A stretch of DNA of 64,000 bases. Origin: Edaphobacter modestus. GTDB taxonomy: Bacteria > Acidobacteriota > Terriglobia > Terriglobales > Acidobacteriaceae. The translations under genes were made by a program, and so were the position numbers. Shown here one piece after another: positions 18,169 to 25,556 of this stretch. Each line of letters opens with the position of its first letter. Within the stretch, counting starts at the first letter, position 1. The stretch spans positions 3,968,001 through 4,032,000 of the forward strand of contig NZ_SHKW01000001.1 of assembly GCF_004217555.1 (NCBI RefSeq). Direction: 5' to 3'. The notes under the pieces were generated by a model. That model was not told the DNA's origin, searched no databases, and saw only the letters and a program-made list of their open reading frames with translations.

Positions 18169-19647
18169 ATGCCGCAAGAGAGCTGGCAGCAGGGAAGGAC
18201 CGATCAGGAAGCTGTCCTCACGGAGGATTCGCTGTCTCGCGAGTTGCCCGTGTGGCCGATGGTTGCTGGCGTCGTGGCTGCAGCCTTCGCTCTGGACTTC
18301 GTCAGCCCGTGGCTGCTGCACCCAGGAACCCTTCCACGATTCGGCTTGCTCGTCGTCGCAGTATTGCTTCTATTCACCGCGGTCATGGTGTGCGGCTTTG
18401 TCGTACGGACGATCTATCTCCGGCTCGTACCCCGCGGTCAGAGGGTCATCACACCGGTGGTGCGGGCTGCCTGCCTGACGGCGCTGTGGATTCCCGCATG
18501 GGTGCTCTTCGTCGAGACGTGGTCGCTGCTGATGCTTCTCGCTGGATGCCTATGCCTGGCAAGCCTTGGAATCCTGATGAAGCGATGCACGGTCGATACC
18601 ACTGTAACGGTACCGTCAGCCCCGCATAACTCATCGTGGATGCCCTTCCAGTTTGAGCCGGGGGCCTTTCGCCGGATGATTTTGCCGTCGCTTCTGCTGG
18701 CGCTGCTAGTGGAGGCTTCGGTGATTCTGGTAGGCGCACGGTGGTTCACGACGGCCTCCATTCTGTGCGGAACGTGCGTCGCCATTCTCGGCTGGCGCGC
18801 AGCATCGAAGGCCAGGCCAGTCGCCGGGCAGCGGGTTGTGCTCTCGGCTCCCAGGCAGACAGCGGTCGTTGCTGCGGCCTTCGTCTTTACTGTGATCGCG
18901 TTGTTGCCCTTCCTGAAGGTTTCTCCATTCTCAAAGGGACTGGGTATCTTCAGCCGAACGCAAAAGGTTTCGAAGGCTGCCGCCAGTACTCAGAAAGGAC
19001 AGGCTGCAAGTAGCGACGGCTACATCGGCATCATTCTTTTACCGCTCAGCGATGAGCAAAAGAAGATCGTCGCGCCGGTAAAGCGGGAGCTCGTCCCGAG
19101 CTTCAGCGGGAGGATAGCGGAGCCGTTTGAGATTCCGTTTACCGGGGCGTACTGGTACTTCAAGGCTCCCGACAAACAGCCGCGACCCACGGCTCACGTT
19201 GTGCGTGGGAGCTCGACGAAGACGCAGATCCGCTCGTCGGACCGCTACCCGCTGCTGATGGAGGCCCACCAGAAGCTCGATACCCCCATCGATCTTGGCT
19301 GCTGCAGCGGGATGGAGCTTGTGGTCGAGAACGCCGACAGGAACGAAGGCGCGATCGCGCTGGAGCTGTGGGTCAGGAAGAGGTCCACGGCACCGCAGAA
19401 GGGCAGTTTCCGCGTCGCAGAGCCCATCCATTACCTCGGCACGGCGGCGATCCCATCCAGCGAGCAGCCGCTGATCCTCCGGGGCCAGGGAACCTCCAAC
19501 CCGACCGAAGAAAGGCTGAAGTTCCCCGTTCCCGCGGCGATGGACGGCGTTCTGTTCGACGAGATCACCGTTGTCGTAAAGACCGCGCCAGCCCGCGCAA
19601 GAACCGGTGCACAGATTGCCATTCGCAAGTTCGTGTTGGAGCCGTAA
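18169..19647 (+). CDS. Polytopic membrane protein of unknown function
   Basis: A 492-residue protein. The first half has six to seven hydrophobic helices (VWPMVAGVVAAAFALDFV, LLVVAVLLLFTAVMVCGFV, WIPAWVLFVETWSLLMLL); the second half is a soluble, mostly beta region (DGYIGIILLPL, FTGAYWYFKAPDKQP, CCSGMELVVEN) probably in the periplasm. No catalytic motif is recognised. It stands alone between a divergent glycine-zipper gene and the aromatic operon. Confidence 0.72.
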   Translation: MPQESWQQGRTDQEAVLTEDSLSRELPVWPMVAGVVAAAFALDFVSPWLLHPGTLPRFGLLVVAVLLLFTAVMVCGFVVRTIYLRLVPRGQRVITPVVRAACLTALWIPAWVLFVETWSLLMLLAGCLCLASLGILMKRCTVDTTVTVPSAPHNSSWMPFQFEPGAFRRMILPSLLLALLVEASVILVGARWFTTASILCGTCVAILGWRAASKARPVAGQRVVLSAPRQTAVVAAAFVFTVIALLPFLKVSPFSKGLGIFSRTQKVSKAAASTQKGQAASSDGYIGIILLPLSDEQKKIVAPVKRELVPSFSGRIAEPFEIPFTGAYWYFKAPDKQPRPTAHVVRGSSTKTQIRSSDRYPLLMEAHQKLDTPIDLGCCSGMELVVENADRNEGAIALELWVRKRSTAPQKGSFRVAEPIHYLGTAAIPSSEQPLILRGQGTSNPTEERLKFPVPAAMDGVLFDEITVVVKTAPARARTGAQIAIRKFVLEP

Positions 19648-19704
19648 GCGGTCGTGTTAAAAGGGTTTCGGCCACCAAATCCGGTTAACTGTCCGGCAAA
19701 CACC

Positions 19705-19733
19705 TTGCAGCCGCTTGTGATGCCATGTATCTT
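19705..19733 (+). promoter_or_regulatory. Possible promoter of the aromatic operon
   Basis: TTGCAG (19705-19710) and TATCTT (19728-19733) are 17 bases apart, an acceptable sigma-70 arrangement with a weak match. The predicted start near 19740 would place the leader-peptide ATG almost at the mRNA 5' end. Confidence 0.3.
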
Positions 19734-19743
19734 TGAAGACAAG

Positions 19744-19818
19744 ATGATTTCTTATTCCAGCCGATTTATCAGCTTTATTTACCGCTACTGGTATCCGGTA
19801 GCGGCATCGGCGGAGTAG
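19744..19818 (+). CDS. Leader peptide of the aromatic operon (24 aa)
   Basis: A 24-codon frame reads MISYSSRFISFIYRYWYP and then VAASAE before TAG. Within nine codons it demands Phe, Ile, Tyr, Tyr, Trp and Tyr, the products or relatives of products of the operon below it (Trp, Tyr/Phe precursors, Ile). The frame is also open from an ATG at 19720, adding eight codons. The critical codons lie in the 5' arm of hairpin 19782-19804, the position needed for ribosome-mediated attenuation. The ribosome site is weak (GAAGAC). Confidence 0.65.
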   Translation: MISYSSRFISFIYRYWYPVAASAE

Positions 19819-19890
19819 GGTCTTCTGACGGATTAGCTGAAGAAAGCAAGCTGAGTTCAGACAAGATCGACATCCACACGAGCCGCGACC
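19782..19890 (+). promoter_or_regulatory. Attenuator pause hairpin (1:2) and antiterminator (2:3)
   Basis: Segment 1 CCGCTAC (19782-19788) pairs perfectly with GTAGCGG (19798-19804). Segment 2 GGTAGCGGC (19797-19805) can instead pair with segment 3 GCCGCGACC (19882-19890) at eight of nine positions. Segment 3 is also the 5' arm of the terminator at 19881-19914. A ribosome stalled on Tyr/Trp codons would cover segment 1 and allow 2:3, preventing termination. Confidence 0.65.
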
Positions 19891-19914
19891 GACCAAGGTT
19901 GCGGCTTTTGTTTT
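19881..19914 (+). terminator. Leader terminator (3:4) before trpB
   Basis: AGCCGCGACC (19881-19890) pairs with GGTTGCGGCT (19897-19906), ten pairs with one G-U, six-base loop, followed by TTTTGTTTT. It lies 19 bases before the trpB ATG with no gene ending nearby to need it (the previous stop is at 19647), so it is best read as the conditional terminator of the attenuator. Confidence 0.8.
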
Positions 19915-19933
19915 GCGCTGAAGGGAGTACACG

Positions 19934-21196
19934 ATGGGCGAGGCGACAGGTGGCACGACAGCGGCGATGGTGAGTCCGGCAGGACCCGTGAGGTCGGGAG
20001 TGGGCCGGTTTGGAGTCTACGGCGGCAGATACGTTCCCGAGACCCTGATGGCCGCGCTCGAAGAGCTGGAAGCAGCCTATGCAGACGCACAGAAGGACGC
20101 GGCGTTTCAGGCAGAACTGGCCGACCTGCTGCACCACTACTGCGGGCGGCCAACGCCGCTCTACTTCGCAAAGCGCCTCTCCGAGACCCTCGGCGGAGCG
20201 AAGATCTACCTGAAGCGGGAAGACCTGCTCCACACCGGCGCGCACAAGATCAACAATGCGCTGGGCCAGGGCCTGCTGGCGAAGCGCATGGGCAAGCAGC
20301 GCATCATCGCGGAGACTGGAGCCGGCCAGCATGGCGTGGCCACCGCCACCGTCTGCGCACTGCTGGGCATGGAATGCGTCGTCTATATGGGCGAAGAGGA
20401 CATGCGGCGGCAGGAGCTGAACGTTCTGCGCATGCGCCTTCTGGGCGCGGAGGTGCGCGGCGTCTCGGCGGGTTCTGCGACGCTGAAGGACGCGATCTCG
20501 GAGGCCATGCGCGACTGGGTCACCAACGTTCGCACGACCTTCTACATTCTCGGCTCGGCGCTCGGTGCGCACCCGTACCCCACCATCGTGCGTGACTTTC
20601 ATCGCGTGATCAGCAAAGAGGCCAAGCGCCAGATCCTGGAGCAGGAGGGCAAACTGCCCACCGCGATCGTTGCCTGTGTAGGCGGCGGGTCGAATGCTAT
20701 CGGAGCCTTCTACGAGTTCTTGAACGACACGAACGTGCAGCTCATCGGAGTCGAAGCGGGCGGACGCGGAACCGCACTCGGCGAGCATGCCGCTCGCTTT
20801 ATGAAGACAGGCGGCGGTGTTCCCGGTGTGCTGCAGGGAACCTACAGTTACGTCCTGCAGGACAATGCCGGACAGATCGCCGCGACACACTCGGTCAGCG
20901 CGGGGCTCGATTACGCCAGCGTCGGCCCCGAGCACGCCATGCTGCACGACTCCGGCCGCGCCACCTACACCATGGCCACCGACGATGAAGCCCTCAAGGC
21001 GACGGTCACACTGGCGCGCACCGAAGGCATTCTTCCGGCGCTCGAGAGTGCGCATGCGGTCGCAGAGGCGATCCGACTGGCACCGACGATGGCGAAGACG
21101 GACGTGCTGATGGTGAACCTGTCGGGAAGAGGCGATAAGGACATGGGAATTCTGGCAAGAGAGCTCGATCTCCAGAGCGTATCGGTGAAGGGATAA
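19934..21196 (+). CDS. trpB: Tryptophan synthase beta chain
   Basis: PLP enzyme that condenses indole and serine to tryptophan, working as an alpha2-beta2 complex with TrpA. 420 residues; the core starts at [14 protein letters not shown]. The PLP lysine is K105 in [13 protein letters not shown]; the phosphate loop is [26 protein letters not shown] and the C-terminal LSGRGDKDM are diagnostic of TrpB1. A GGGAG ribosome site precedes the ATG. The N-terminal 20-25 residues are non-conserved. First structural gene after the attenuator; trpA follows after six bases. Confidence 0.97.
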
Positions 21197-21202
21197 GAGA
21201 CG

Positions 21203-21964
21203 ATGGCGATTGAGTTCAAGACGAAGCCCGGCCTGGTGATTTATCTCACCGCTGGCGATCCTGACCTGGCGACCACACGCGACATCGCGCTTGCCGCAAT
21301 CGACAATGGCGCAGATGTGATCGAGCTGGGCGTCCCGTTCAGCGATCCGCTCGCCGACGGCCCCGTCATCCAGCGAGCCAGCGAGCGCGCCGTAGCGAAA
21401 GGCACGCGGCTGACCGATGTACTCGCTCTCGCCAAAGAGCTTCGCTCCGCACGCCCTCAGGCCGGAATCATCCTCTTCTCGTACTTAAATCCCGTCCTCC
21501 GGTTGGGTATGCAGGAGTTCTGTGCGCGGGCCTCCGAGGCAGGCGCAGATGGCGTTCTGCTGACCGACATGATCGTCGAAGAGGCCGCCGAATATCTTGA
21601 CGCGATGCACGCGAACAAACTTGCCCCGGTGTTTCTTGCGGCGCCTACAAGCCCCGATGCGCGATTGAAGGCTATCGCCGAGTGCTCGCAGGGGTTCGTC
21701 TACGCCATCTCCCGTGTCGGAATTACGGGGACGCAGTCGAGCCTCACCGAAGATGCCTCGCAGGTGGTGAGTCGCCTGCGGCAGTTTACGAAGCTTCCCA
21801 TCGCAGTGGGCTTTGGCATCTCCAACGCACAGCATGTCCGTGCCGTGGGCGAATTTGCCGATGCCGCAGTTGTGGGCAGCGCACTGGTACAACTGATTGA
21901 AAGAACCCCACCCGAAGAAGCTGCAGCGGCTGTAGGAACTCTGATATCGGAGCTGCGCGCATGA
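21203..21964 (+). CDS. trpA: Tryptophan synthase alpha chain
   Basis: Cleaves indole-3-glycerol phosphate and channels indole to TrpB. A 253-residue TIM barrel with catalytic E41 in VIELGVPFSDPLADGP and D52. Further signatures: YLNPVLRLG, GVLLTDMIVEE, YAISRVGITGTQ and the phosphate site VGFGISNAQHV / AAVVGSALV. It follows trpB by six bases. The other trp genes (trpE, D, C, F) are not in the window. Confidence 0.97.
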   Translation: MAIEFKTKPGLVIYLTAGDPDLATTRDIALAAIDNGADVIELGVPFSDPLADGPVIQRASERAVAKGTRLTDVLALAKELRSARPQAGIILFSYLNPVLRLGMQEFCARASEAGADGVLLTDMIVEEAAEYLDAMHANKLAPVFLAAPTSPDARLKAIAECSQGFVYAISRVGITGTQSSLTEDASQVVSRLRQFTKLPIAVGFGISNAQHVRAVGEFADAAVVGSALVQLIERTPPEEAAAAVGTLISELRA

Positions 21965-22061: not shown

Positions 22062-22325
22062 ATGGAGATCTCTGACTGGCGGCAAAAGATCGACGAGCTC
22101 GACGAGCAGATCGTTCGCCTTATCAACCAGCGTGCTGAGGCTGCAAAGGCGATCGGTCGGCTTAAGCAGGAGTCCAGCCTTCCGGTCTATGAACCGAAGC
22201 GGGAGCAGGTTGTCTTCGAGCATGTCCGCCGCTCGAACCCCGGACCTCTCTCTGACAACGAGGTGGTCGACATCTTCGAGCGCATCATCGATGTGATGCG
22301 CGCTCTTCAGAAAAACCCAGACTAG
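22062..22325 (+). CDS. aroQ: Chorismate mutase, AroQ type
   Basis: An 87-residue all-helical monofunctional mutase that converts chorismate to prephenate, the branch to Phe and Tyr. Conserved residues: WRQKIDELDEQIVRLINQRA (first helix with active-site Arg), AKAIGRLKQ (Lys), and VYEPKREQVV (Arg/Glu). GAGGAATATCG gives a good ribosome site. It lies 97 bases after trpA, inside the operon, and feeds TyrA two genes down. Confidence 0.92.
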   Translation: MEISDWRQKIDELDEQIVRLINQRAEAAKAIGRLKQESSLPVYEPKREQVVFEHVRRSNPGPLSDNEVVDIFERIIDVMRALQKNPD

Positions 22326-22385: not shown

Positions 22386-23405
22386 ATGATCGTAGCAATG
22401 CAGGACACGGCAACCGAAGAACATATACAGCTTGTGATCGAGCGAATGGTCGAGCTCGGTTTCAGAGTCCACCGCACCACCGGAGCCGCGCAGACGATTC
22501 TGGCCGGCGTGGGCACCCCGGAGCACTTCGACGTCGCCGAGTTCAAGGTGCTGGCGGGCGTTCACGACGCTTACCGCATCTCTTCGCCTTATAAGCTGGC
22601 TGGTCGCAACTTCCGCCCCGAGGGCACAAAGATTACCTTCCCCAACGGTGTGGTCGTCGGTGGCAAAGAGGTGGTCATCATGGCTGGCCCGTGCTCGGTC
22701 GAATCGCGGGAGCAGATTCTCGACAGCGCGAAGAAGGTTGCCGCAGCAGGAGCGAAGTTCCTGCGCGGAGGAGCGTACAAGCCACGCAGCTCGCCGTACA
22801 GCTTCCAGGGCATGGGCGTCGAGGGCCTGAAGCTGCTGCGGGAGGTAGCTGACGAGACTGGCCTGCTGGTGATCACCGAGGTGATGGAGATCTCGCAAAT
22901 CGAGGTGATGCTTCCGTACATCGACGTCTTCCAGATTGGCGCGCGCAACATGCAGAACTTCAACCTTCTGCGCGAGCTTGGCCATGTGCGCAAGCCGTGT
23001 CTGCTGAAGCGCGGCATCTCGGCCACGATTGAAGAGGTCCTGTTAAGCGCCGAGTACATCCTCTCCGGCGGCAACTACGACCTGATGCTCTGCGAGCGCG
23101 GCATTCGCACCTACGAGACTGCGACCCGCAACACGATGGACATCTCCGCGATCCCGGTGCTCAAGAAGCTGACCCACCTTCCCGTGCTCGGCGATCCGTC
23201 ACACGGCGTAGGCATCCGCGACCTCGTTCCTCCCATGGCGCTGGCCTCCGTGGCCGCGGGAGCCGATGGTCTGTTGATGGAGATGCATCCCAATCCGGAC
23301 AAGGCGATGAGCGACGGCGCGCAGAGTATGTATCCCGAACAGCTGGAGAAGCTGGTTGCGCAGTTGCGGCAGCTTGCTCCCGTCGTCGGGCGTACGGTCG
23401 CATAA
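22386..23405 (+). CDS. aroF: DAHP synthase (3-deoxy-7-phosphoheptulonate synthase), AroAI-beta type
   Basis: First enzyme of the shikimate pathway (PEP + erythrose 4-phosphate). 339 residues: an N-terminal ferredoxin-like regulatory domain (about 1-70) and the barrel. Signatures: [64 protein letters not shown] and [20 protein letters not shown]. The regulatory domain is the type usually inhibited by Phe/Tyr or by prephenate. It sits between chorismate mutase and prephenate dehydrogenase, so the operon controls pathway entry and branch. Confidence 0.96.
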
Positions 23406-23421: not shown

Positions 23422-24279
23422 ATGATGGAACGGGTACTCATCATCGGAACGGGGCTGATCGGCGCATCGACCGGCCTGGCCCTGCGTGCCGCCGGTTTTG
23501 GCGGACGCATTGATGGATGGGACCAGAGCCTGCTGGAGCTGCGCGCCGCCCTCGAGATGGGGGCGGTCGATGGCGTCGCCGGCAATCAGTGGGGCGCGCT
23601 GGAGCTGGCACGTCAGGCCGACGTCATCGTGCTCGCCGTGCCCGTGCTTGCCATCAAGGACTGGATGCAGCAGCTGGCGGCAGCCACAGGTCCGGGCCAG
23701 CTGATCACCGATGTAGGCAGCACCAAGCTCGAGATCACCGAGCTGGCGTGTTCTCTCTTCGGCAGCGAGAATCAGGCCGCCTTCCTTGCAGGACATCCGA
23801 TGGCCGGCAAGGAGTCCGGGGGAGCGCTGCTGGCTGAAGCCAGCCTGTTTCAGGGCGCGATGTGGCTGTTTACTCCTGCCTCCCAGACTCCAACGGAGAT
23901 GGAGAAGGAGTGGCGGAGCTGGGTCGGCTTCTTTGGAACGCGGACGCTCGATATGGACCCGAAGCGTCACGACGAGATGTGTGCCTGGGTAAGCCATCTT
24001 CCGCAGATGCTCTCGACCGCTCTGGCGGCGCTGCTGGAGGAAAAGTTCGGCGACGCGCCCGAGATCGCGGCGATCGGCGGACGCGCTCTTCGCGAGACCA
24101 CCCGCCTCGGAGCGAGCCCTTACAGCATGTGGCGCGACGTCGCCATGACCAACACCGCCCCCATCGCCGAAACCTTACTTGCGCTCGAGCAGCGTCTCGG
24201 TCATGTACGGGAGAACCTGCGCACGCCGGAGCTGCGCGACGAGTTCGCCCTGGCCAATCAGTTCCGCGTGCGGCGTTAG
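23422..24279 (+). CDS. tyrA: Prephenate dehydrogenase
   Basis: NAD(P)-dependent oxidative decarboxylation of prephenate (or arogenate) on the way to tyrosine. About 285 residues with the dinucleotide motif VLIIGTGLIGAS at the start, ITDVGSTK, FLAGHPMAGKESGG (catalytic His) and SHLPQMLSTALA. GGGA lies about 12 bases before ATG 23422; ATG 23410 is too close to that site. No ACT domain, so feedback control is probably at DAHP synthase and by attenuation. It follows aroF by 16 bases. Confidence 0.92.
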   Translation: MMERVLIIGTGLIGASTGLALRAAGFGGRIDGWDQSLLELRAALEMGAVDGVAGNQWGALELARQADVIVLAVPVLAIKDWMQQLAAATGPGQLITDVGSTKLEITELACSLFGSENQAAFLAGHPMAGKESGGALLAEASLFQGAMWLFTPASQTPTEMEKEWRSWVGFFGTRTLDMDPKRHDEMCAWVSHLPQMLSTALAALLEEKFGDAPEIAAIGGRALRETTRLGASPYSMWRDVAMTNTAPIAETLLALEQRLGHVRENLRTPELRDEFALANQFRVRR

Positions 24280-24311: not shown

Positions 24312-25556
24312 TTGAGTCCGACCGAACAGGCAGCACGGAGCAGTTTGAACATCAGCCTCGCTGACGTGATGGCTGCGCGGGCGCGGCTGCGCGACGCAAT
24401 CTATTACACTCCGTGCGCGCACTCGAAGGTGCTTTCGGCGCTGACCGACCAGCAGGTCTTTCTCAAGCTTGAGAACCTGCAGATGACCGGCTCCTTCAAA
24501 GAACGCGGAGCGCTGAACCGCATCGCGCTTCTGACACAGGAGCAGGCGTCGCGCGGAGTCGTCGCCGCAAGCGCGGGAAATCACGCGCAGGGCGTTGCCT
24601 ATCACGCGACCTCGCGTGGAATCCAAGCGATCATCGTTATGCCGCTGGCGACTCCACTCGTCAAAGTCACGGCCACGCGAGGCTTTGGCGCCGAGGTTGT
24701 GCTGCATGGCGCCAACTACGACGAGGCCTATGAAGAGGCTCGCCGCATCTGCACCGCGCAGAACATGACCTTCATCCACCCCTTCGATGATCCGGCGGTG
24801 ATGGCCGGTCAGGGAACCATCGGGCTCGAGTTGCTCGAGCAGATTCCGGATCTTGAAGCCGTAGTCGTGCCCATCGGTGGAGGCGGCCTCATTGGTGGCA
24901 TAGCATGCGCGATCAAGGAGTCTCGTCCCGAGATCAAGGTCATCGGCGCACAGACCTCACGGCTGCCATCGATGGCAGTTGCGGTCGAGCACCACCATCC
25001 GGTCACCATTCCGCCCGCGACCACCATTGCCGATGGCATCGCGGTACGACGCGCAGGCGAGGTTACGCTTCCCGTCGTCGAGCGCTACGTCGACGAGATC
25101 GTAACCGTCGACGAGGACGAGATCGCCTCCGCCATCCTGGTTCTCCTGGAGCGCGAGAAGACCCTCGCCGAAGGCGCGGGAGCTGCGGGACTTGCGGCGC
25201 TGCTCCAGAAGCGGACGTCTTTGAAGGGCGCGCGCACGGCGGTGATCATAGGCGGCGGCAACATCGACGTCACGCTGCTCAGCCGGATCATCGAGCGTGG
25301 TCTTGTGCAGGACGGCCGTATGATTCGTCTGCGCATCCATCTGCTGGACAAGCCCGGAGCGCTGGCCGAGCTGACGAAGTTGATCGCGCATCATCGCGTC
25401 AACATCGTCGATACGCTCTACAACCGCGCCTACTATGGTGTGAATCTTGGTGACACGACTATCGACATCACCCTTGAGACTCGCGGCCGCGAACAGGTCG
25501 ACGAGCTTCTCGCGGTCCTGGATGCAGGTGGGTACGTCTACTCCCGCGTGGTCTAG
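24312..25556 (+). CDS. ilvA: Threonine ammonia-lyase (threonine deaminase)
   Basis: PLP enzyme that turns threonine into 2-oxobutanoate for isoleucine synthesis. 414 residues from a TTG start at 24312 with AAGGAG eight bases upstream; an in-frame extension back to 23862 overlaps tyrA and is rejected. PLP lysine K63 in TGSFKERGA; phosphate loop PIGGGGLIGG; EGAGAAGLAAL; a single C-terminal ACT-like domain (RLRIHLLDKPGALAELTKLI). This short form is the TdcB-like kind with one regulatory domain. It ends the aromatic operon, 32 bases after tyrA, an unusual place for an isoleucine gene. Confidence 0.92.
   Translation: MSPTEQAARSSLNISLADVMAARARLRDAIYYTPCAHSKVLSALTDQQVFLKLENLQMTGSFKERGALNRIALLTQEQASRGVVAASAGNHAQGVAYHATSRGIQAIIVMPLATPLVKVTATRGFGAEVVLHGANYDEAYEEARRICTAQNMTFIHPFDDPAVMAGQGTIGLELLEQIPDLEAVVVPIGGGGLIGGIACAIKESRPEIKVIGAQTSRLPSMAVAVEHHHPVTIPPATTIADGIAVRRAGEVTLPVVERYVDEIVTVDEDEIASAILVLLEREKTLAEGAGAAGLAALLQKRTSLKGARTAVIIGGGNIDVTLLSRIIERGLVQDGRMIRLRIHLLDKPGALAELTKLIAHHRVNIVDTLYNRAYYGVNLGDTTIDITLETRGREQVDELLAVLDAGGYVYSRVV

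Follow-up and report, generated by a model that had tools for sequence, protein, structure and literature searches.

The 64,000-nt stretch of DNA analysed here (the window) carries, ahead of trpB, an element that is very probably a ribosome-mediated transcription attenuator of the classical kind, with alternative helices between RNA segments 1 and 2, 2 and 3, and 3 and 4 (1:2, 2:3 and 3:4). It is shared by a shikimate-pathway regulon and would sense Phe, Tyr and Trp and terminate transcription in front of the operon when they are plentiful. A preliminary description of the window had proposed an attenuator at this position, a reading that comparison with related genomes now strongly supports through covariation of helices 1:2 and 3:4, the genes that follow the element and the placement of its control codons. 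The same description took the leader for a joint sensor of Tyr, Phe, Ile and Trp; the three aromatic amino acids are supported, whereas Ile does not hold as a general feature. The elements are best read as a small shared control system, or regulon, over the shikimate pathway and not as a single curiosity.

Leader, competing helices and operon in the window

The features of the region are collected in Table 1. The 24-codon aromatic leader frame lies exactly where it had first been placed, and its stop codon occupies 19816-19818. The strings originally proposed to form helix 1:2, CCGCTAC (19782-19788) and GTAGCGG (19798-19804), are likewise present and complementary, but the actual hairpin is longer, with 10 bp between 19782-19791 and 19795-19804, a TAT loop and a predicted energy of -17.2 kcal/mol. 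Helix 2:3 holds on the sequence as described, with 8 of 9 positions of 19797-19805 able to pair with 19882-19890 (-7.3 kcal/mol from 7 pairs of 19798-19805 scored). The 10-bp terminator stem 3:4 (19881-19890 with 19897-19906) is also present; with an additional G-U pair (19880 with 19907) it reaches -21.1 kcal/mol, and it runs into a U-tract, TTTTGTTTT, at 19906-19914, ahead of the trpB ATG at 19934. This terminator was also picked up by a pattern scan for which about 1.2 such sites are expected by chance in the 1.5 kb scanned. As a whole, the 176 nt from 19740 to 19915 fold at -70.9 kcal/mol, compared with -46.2 +/- 4.0 kcal/mol for 200 dinucleotide shuffles (z -6.1), none of which folded as well (0/200).

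In the predicted fold, a lower stem between 19751-19765 and 19806-19819 (including GCCGAT/ATCGGC) lengthens hairpin 1:2 so that it reaches back into the beginning of the leader. Exact complementarity of at least 5 nt at this lower stem is found in 95/157 relatives, versus about 38 in shuffles.

The operon behind the terminator had been given as trpB-trpA-aroQ-aroF-tyrA-ilvA. Five of these genes (trpB, trpA, aroQ, aroF and ilvA) score above the NCBIfam cut-offs, whereas the product of tyrA is a relative of prephenate dehydrogenase that stays under the curated ones. On the same strand upstream of the attenuator, a 492-aa ORF (18169-19647) has no NCBIfam match.

Table 1. Features of the leader region and of the operon behind it, in window coordinates
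Feature	Position	Strand	Basis and remarks
-35-like element TTGCAG	19705..19710	+	most frequent bases at -39 to -36 from the leader ATG are T, T, G and C
Extended -10 element TGTATCTT	19726..19733	+	17-nt spacer to the -35; 3′ end 10 nt before the leader ATG
Leader peptide ORF	19744..19818	+	24 codons, MISYSSRFISFIYRYWYPVAASAE-stop; aromatic codons conserved in relatives
Segment 1 CCGCTACTGG	19782..19791	+	codons Arg-Tyr-Trp; covarying 1:2 hairpin
Segment 2 CCGGTAGCGGC	19795..19805	+	19795-19804 pairs with segment 1, 19797-19805 with segment 3; core GCGGC conserved in three leader reading frames
Spacer hairpin, leader stop to terminator	19820..19866	+	minimum-free-energy fold only
Segment 3 GAGCCGCGACC	19880..19890	+	pattern scan, covariation
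Segment 4 GGTTGCGGCTT and U-tract TTTTGTTTT, intrinsic terminator	19897..19914	+	pattern scan, permissive search in relatives, covariation
trpB	19934..21196	+	TIGR00263, 614 bits
trpA	21203..21964	+	TIGR00262
aroQ, chorismate mutase	22062..22325	+	TIGR01807, 73.9 bits, cut-off 69.55
aroF, DAHP synthase	22386..23405	+	TIGR01361
tyrA-like prephenate dehydrogenase	23422..24279	+	PRK06545 group, 163.5 bits, below curated cut-offs; start codon assumed
ilvA, threonine ammonia-lyase	24348..25556	+	TIGR01127, 498.8 bits; 71 nt after tyrA; start codon assumed

A putative promoter immediately upstream of the leader

The 186 distinct sequences upstream of leaders show enrichment of two elements at a fixed distance from the leader ATG, TTGC and an extended -10. 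At positions -39 to -36 from this codon, T, T, G and C reach 54, 50, 41 and 42%, respectively, and the best -10 ends 8-12 nt 5′ of the ATG in 133 of the 186. Because the -10 element of the window ends 10 nt before the leader ATG, transcription probably begins about 2-5 nt 5′ of that codon, which would probably make the leader mRNA near-leaderless. The trpL attenuator RNA of Sinorhizobium meliloti, described in PMC7298713 as beginning at the trpL ATG, offers a precedent for such a leaderless leader. Matches to AGGAGG before the leader ATG were no commoner in the 186 sequences than in shuffles, and a strict consensus promoter scan of the window region returned no promoter. All but 3 of 192 leaders could be assigned an ATG start.

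Copies of the element precede genes of the shikimate pathway

With the leader region as blastn query, 23 of 200 genomes of the family were hit at E 0.001; some of the matches lie away from trpB, and at least one (L133) is not the element. At the matched loci, the same leader was seen before genes for shikimate kinase (aroK) and DAHP synthase (aroF), targets recognised first by eye and then by similarity. From 29 aligned sequences (the window and 28 relatives) we built a covariance model, R1, with helices 1:2 and 3:4 as its structure. Under strict filters, R1 matched 93/200 family genomes at E 0.01, some of the weakest matches being plain terminators, and gave no match in the other 107. It also matched 116/399 genomes of the class at E 0.001 and 37/396 of the phylum at E 1e-5. 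Because one false match reached E 1.9e-5, a reliable match calls for an E value under about 1e-6.

R1 matches occur at least twice in every one of the 35 genomes listed for the window's genus. The window's own genome has two strong copies, the one in the window and one before aroK. The latter, at G000:C1:1725211-1725337 (positions 251-377 of locus L194, G000:C1:1724961-1728637), carries the leader MVNALQFGRFSYWYQSAAGGAFVCTSEKS. No such element was seen at trpE of this genome, and two weak matches in it (L139, E 0.1; L142, E 3.0) were rejected as terminators without a leader.

For a systematic view of targets, 192 elements from 141 genomes of the same class were selected by score among the listed R1 matches, of which they are a part, and pathway proteins were compared by tblastn with the DNA behind each. 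An aromatic-pathway gene lies within 280 nt in 191 of the 192, the remaining element running off its contig. The targets comprise 58 trpB, 52 aroK, 41 aroF, 24 pheA operons, 10 aroQ-aroF and 6 aroQ, with a median distance of 17 nt and a maximum of 280 nt between the match end and the start of the first aromatic gene. The association is the same outside the set from which R1 was built, with an aromatic gene behind 163/164 elements. In trpB-type loci with at least 3.3 kb in view, aroF is always present (21/21). Among 20 weaker family matches outside the 192, 7 have an aromatic gene downstream, 12 are plain terminators or chance, and one (L350) has an aromatic leader with too little sequence behind it.

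The position before trpB given in the preliminary description is thus one of several. Because the element also stands before aroK, in the window's own genome as well as in relatives, and before aroF and aroQ-pheA-aroF in relatives, the common denominator appears to be the shikimate pathway (its entry and kinase steps) and not trpB. Most of the closest named TrpB relatives come from Acidobacteria, and among the named loci read upstream (L002-L023) the element precedes trpB in L002 only, an Acidobacteriaceae MAG. In seven further loci (L101-L104, L108, L109 and L111), where an upstream CDS (trpF as read by eye) abuts trpB, no leader was found.

Outside the class, R1 had two matches at E 1e-5 or better, a genuine element in G595 and a plain terminator in G704. 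The G595 copy (L355, G595:C31:127465-130468) precedes aroQ-pheA-aroF with the leader MTITTHTLFYFAFTYRFFFNGESGPAKCGREVRKT, and could reflect either deep ancestry or transfer.

Helices 1:2 and 3:4 covary in relatives

Two of the three proposed helices are borne out by covariation. In the 29-sequence alignment, 94.5% of the cells of 1:2 and 3:4 pair and 8 pairs have changed on both sides, and no shuffle (0/500) was as high on either measure, although shuffles of this kind, here and below, ignore relatedness. In a larger set, helix 3:4 has 103 cells changed on both sides against a maximum of 38 in 200 shuffles; for helix 1:2, whose partners were chosen for pairing, the count is 95 against a maximum of 61. 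Helix 2:3 does not rise above shuffles in the 29 sequences and does so slightly in the larger set (52 both-side cells, maximum 44 in shuffles), where its site was also selected for pairing well. With so little variation in the 2:3 core, GCGGC/GCCGC (156/189 elements), covariation can hardly test this helix, and on the sequences compared the near-invariance counts neither for nor against the pairing.

A permissive search found a T-tailed hairpin in 192/192 elements, 168 of them without mismatch, and in local folds all four GCGG bases lie in a 3′ arm in 138/189. Three of the 192 (G355, G449 and G238) have no recognisable segment-3 core and are outside the helix and codon-placement counts.

The GCGGC core falls in leader frames 0, 1 and 2 in 119, 30 and 6 of 155 elements, where it codes for Ala-Ala, Gly-rich or Arg-rich stretches depending on the frame; an alternative assignment of leader starts gives 113, 29 and 6 of 148. 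Since the core is kept across all three frames, this comparison indicates that selection on it acts on the RNA and not on the peptide.

Trp control codons follow operon content

The aromatic codons of the leader are conserved in relatives, as the attenuator proposal had led one to expect. Up to the hairpin loop, 38% of leader residues are Phe, Tyr or Trp, versus 5% and 12% in the other two frames and 11% in shuffled leaders, percentages for which the frames were picked partly for aromatic content and one leader (G352) was read in a wrong frame. The run of aromatic codons ends abruptly. Across 155 elements, 935/2398 codons (39%) that start at least 8 nt before the GCGGC core are Phe, Tyr or Trp codons, compared with 47/1779 (3%) of those later than this. 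Given the dimensions of the ribosome, one with its A site at such an aromatic codon would leave segment 2 outside the entry channel. Borderline in this respect is the Trp codon, usually 12 nt 5′ of the core, where a stalled ribosome may mask part of segment 2.

By these comparisons, Trp codons follow the content of the operon. Trp is present in 51/52 distinct trpB leaders, 48/48 aroK leaders and 33/40 aroF leaders, versus 6/23 pheA-operon, 2/8 aroQ-aroF and 1/6 aroQ leaders (trpB plus aroK vs pheA, Fisher p 6e-15, ancestry ignored). The 52nd trpB leader, that of G352, is no exception when read from its nearest in-frame ATG (MIQHSRISFILRYWRTIAASAE). Within the family genomes (G000-G199), the counts are 24/24 for trpB, 21/21 for aroK and 26/33 for aroF, and, in small numbers, 2/6 for pheA operons, 0/5 for aroQ-aroF and 0/5 for aroQ. 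In the leaders of pheA and aroQ operons, other residues, among them Ser, His, Phe and Pro, mostly take the place of Trp.

Separately, the Phe codon three codons before the Arg codon is TTT in 162/165 leaders, and the genes of the window operon favour TTC (29 TTC, 14 TTT). The preference at this column could stem either from a constraint at the nucleotide level or from use of the rarer codon.

Isoleucine codons are limited to part of the window's genus, and Ile sensing conserved across the family is rejected. We compared leaders with gene order in 35 genus genomes, of 62 searched for ilvA and tyrA. At least two Ile codons precede the hairpin loop in 20/25 genus leaders with ilvA next to tyrA, in 0/10 without adjacent ilvA (three of which have one Ile) and in 1/154 other leaders. 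The gap between ilvA and tyrA is 71-234 nt in the genus genomes where they are adjacent; five of these (G456, G305, G385, G486 and G098) have no Ile codons in this part of the leader. On a trpB tree, the Ile trait changes at least 4 times and ilvA adjacency 6 times, with only two independent pairs on supported branches, so the link between Ile codons and ilvA may reflect shared ancestry.

A more general idea, for and against which we see the case as evenly balanced, is that a single RNA scaffold could be reprogrammed to sense different sets of amino acids across the whole pathway. The helices would be constant and the control codons would change to suit the operon, with Trp dropped before pheA operons and Ile gained where ilvA joined, and the window leader would read Phe, Tyr, Trp and Ile at once.

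Proposed mechanism and alternative explanations

In the mechanism that we propose, transcription from the promoter would start a few nucleotides 5′ of the leader ATG. On a shortage of charged Phe, Tyr or Trp tRNA, a ribosome would stall on the aromatic codons and open segment 1, leaving segment 2 free. Segment 2 could then capture segment 3, so that the terminator cannot form and trpB-trpA-aroQ-aroF-tyrA-ilvA would be transcribed. With all three amino acids plentiful, the ribosome would reach the stop codon and cover segment 2, and helix 3:4 would end transcription near 19914. Helix 2:3 (-7.3 kcal/mol) is weak beside the terminator (-21.1 kcal/mol), which still forms in free folds from which the leader has been removed up to the stall site. 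Because unconstrained folds still choose the terminator, the switch must be kinetic, depending on the order of synthesis. Other attenuators likewise work by order of synthesis.

The abundance of T-tailed hairpins, of which about 1.2 were expected in the 1.5 kb scanned, and the 12 of 20 weak model matches that are plain terminators or chance would suit an ordinary terminator of the upstream gene beside a chance ORF. We reject this explanation, to which we attach next to no probability: aromatic genes follow 191/192 elements, and both the leader codons and hairpin 1:2 are conserved, which would have to be an artefact of the model for it to survive. A TnaC-like arrest peptide, whose nascent chain with RYWxxVAASAE would stall the ribosome on an aromatic ligand and not through codon hunger, would account for the recurrence of RYW..VAASAE in trpB leaders. 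It appears very unlikely, as the part after RYW shifts in frame and sequence while GCGGC stays (119/30/6) and the aromatic residues swap among F, Y and W and track operon content.

The leader might also sense only Phe and Tyr, the Trp codon being kept since its TGG sits in an arm of hairpin 1:2. The position of this codon, mostly 12 nt before the core where a stalled ribosome may mask part of segment 2, fits such a restriction; that Trp is mostly replaced before pheA and aroQ operons, and kept in all distinct trpB leaders and 48/48 aroK leaders, argues against it, and we think it unlikely. Finally, by analogy with rnTrpL/peTrpL of S. meliloti (PMC7298713), the terminated RNA of about 175 nt might act in trans as well, as a small RNA or a small leaderless mRNA. 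The near-leaderless architecture would accommodate this additional role, which we nonetheless consider quite improbable, the cis switch already explaining the conservation. An attenuator reading Phe, Tyr and Trp is the interpretation that we favour.

Comparison with known attenuators

A search of the window against Rfam gave a tRNA as the sole match at gathering score. The only matches in the interval 19600-20000 at E up to 5 were three weak, unrelated ones, none of them to a leader family, and at 12 other element loci nothing reached gathering score. The open PMC literature searched, outside which most subscription papers lie, yielded no account of an attenuator for aromatic amino acids in Acidobacteria. 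From an element spread across a whole lineage, one can predict shikimate-pathway regulation in the window's class that would place both DAHP synthase and shikimate kinase, whose reactions supply Phe, Tyr and Trp alike, under a single pan-aromatic sensor. Furthermore, the natural series of leaders, with and without Trp and with and without Ile, makes gain and loss of amino-acid specificity in an attenuator directly testable.

The leader of the E. coli trp operon combines an ORF with control codons, competing helices and an intrinsic terminator; it reads Trp and precedes trpE. The window element has the same components as this leader and trpL of S. meliloti, its competing helix 2:3 being a prediction. 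In contrast to both, which read Trp before trpE, it would read Phe, Tyr and Trp, and it precedes trpB, aroK, aroF or pheA operons. In E. coli, the ilv and thr leaders each sense more than one amino acid. Together with pheA, the ilvGMEDA and thr operons of E. coli (listed in PMC1183508) resemble the window in having multi-codon leaders, but they involve other amino acids and another scaffold, whereas here one scaffold serves several operons.

Closer in target is the uORFC-13-1 motif of Acholeplasma, in which a predicted uORF containing one or more Phe codons and a terminator lie ahead of the DAHP synthase gene aroF (PMC8632094). The window element is similarly a uORF with a Phe codon and a terminator, which in relatives precedes a DAHP synthase gene. 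The motif differs, as far as its entry in PMC8632094 goes, in being from the genus Acholeplasma with 24 representatives, in lying only before aroF, in naming only Phe and in listing an RBS. Attenuation has also been proposed for DAHP synthase genes in E. coli (aroF) and in predicted aroF and aroH RNAs of Shewanella (PMC2659441); for aroF, the relevant part of that source names tyr-tRNA alone and describes no leader scaffold of the window's type. The mechanism proposed here is therefore of a known kind, and what appears to be new is the putative pan-aromatic scaffold, spread over multiple operons, with its lineage-specific codon changes.
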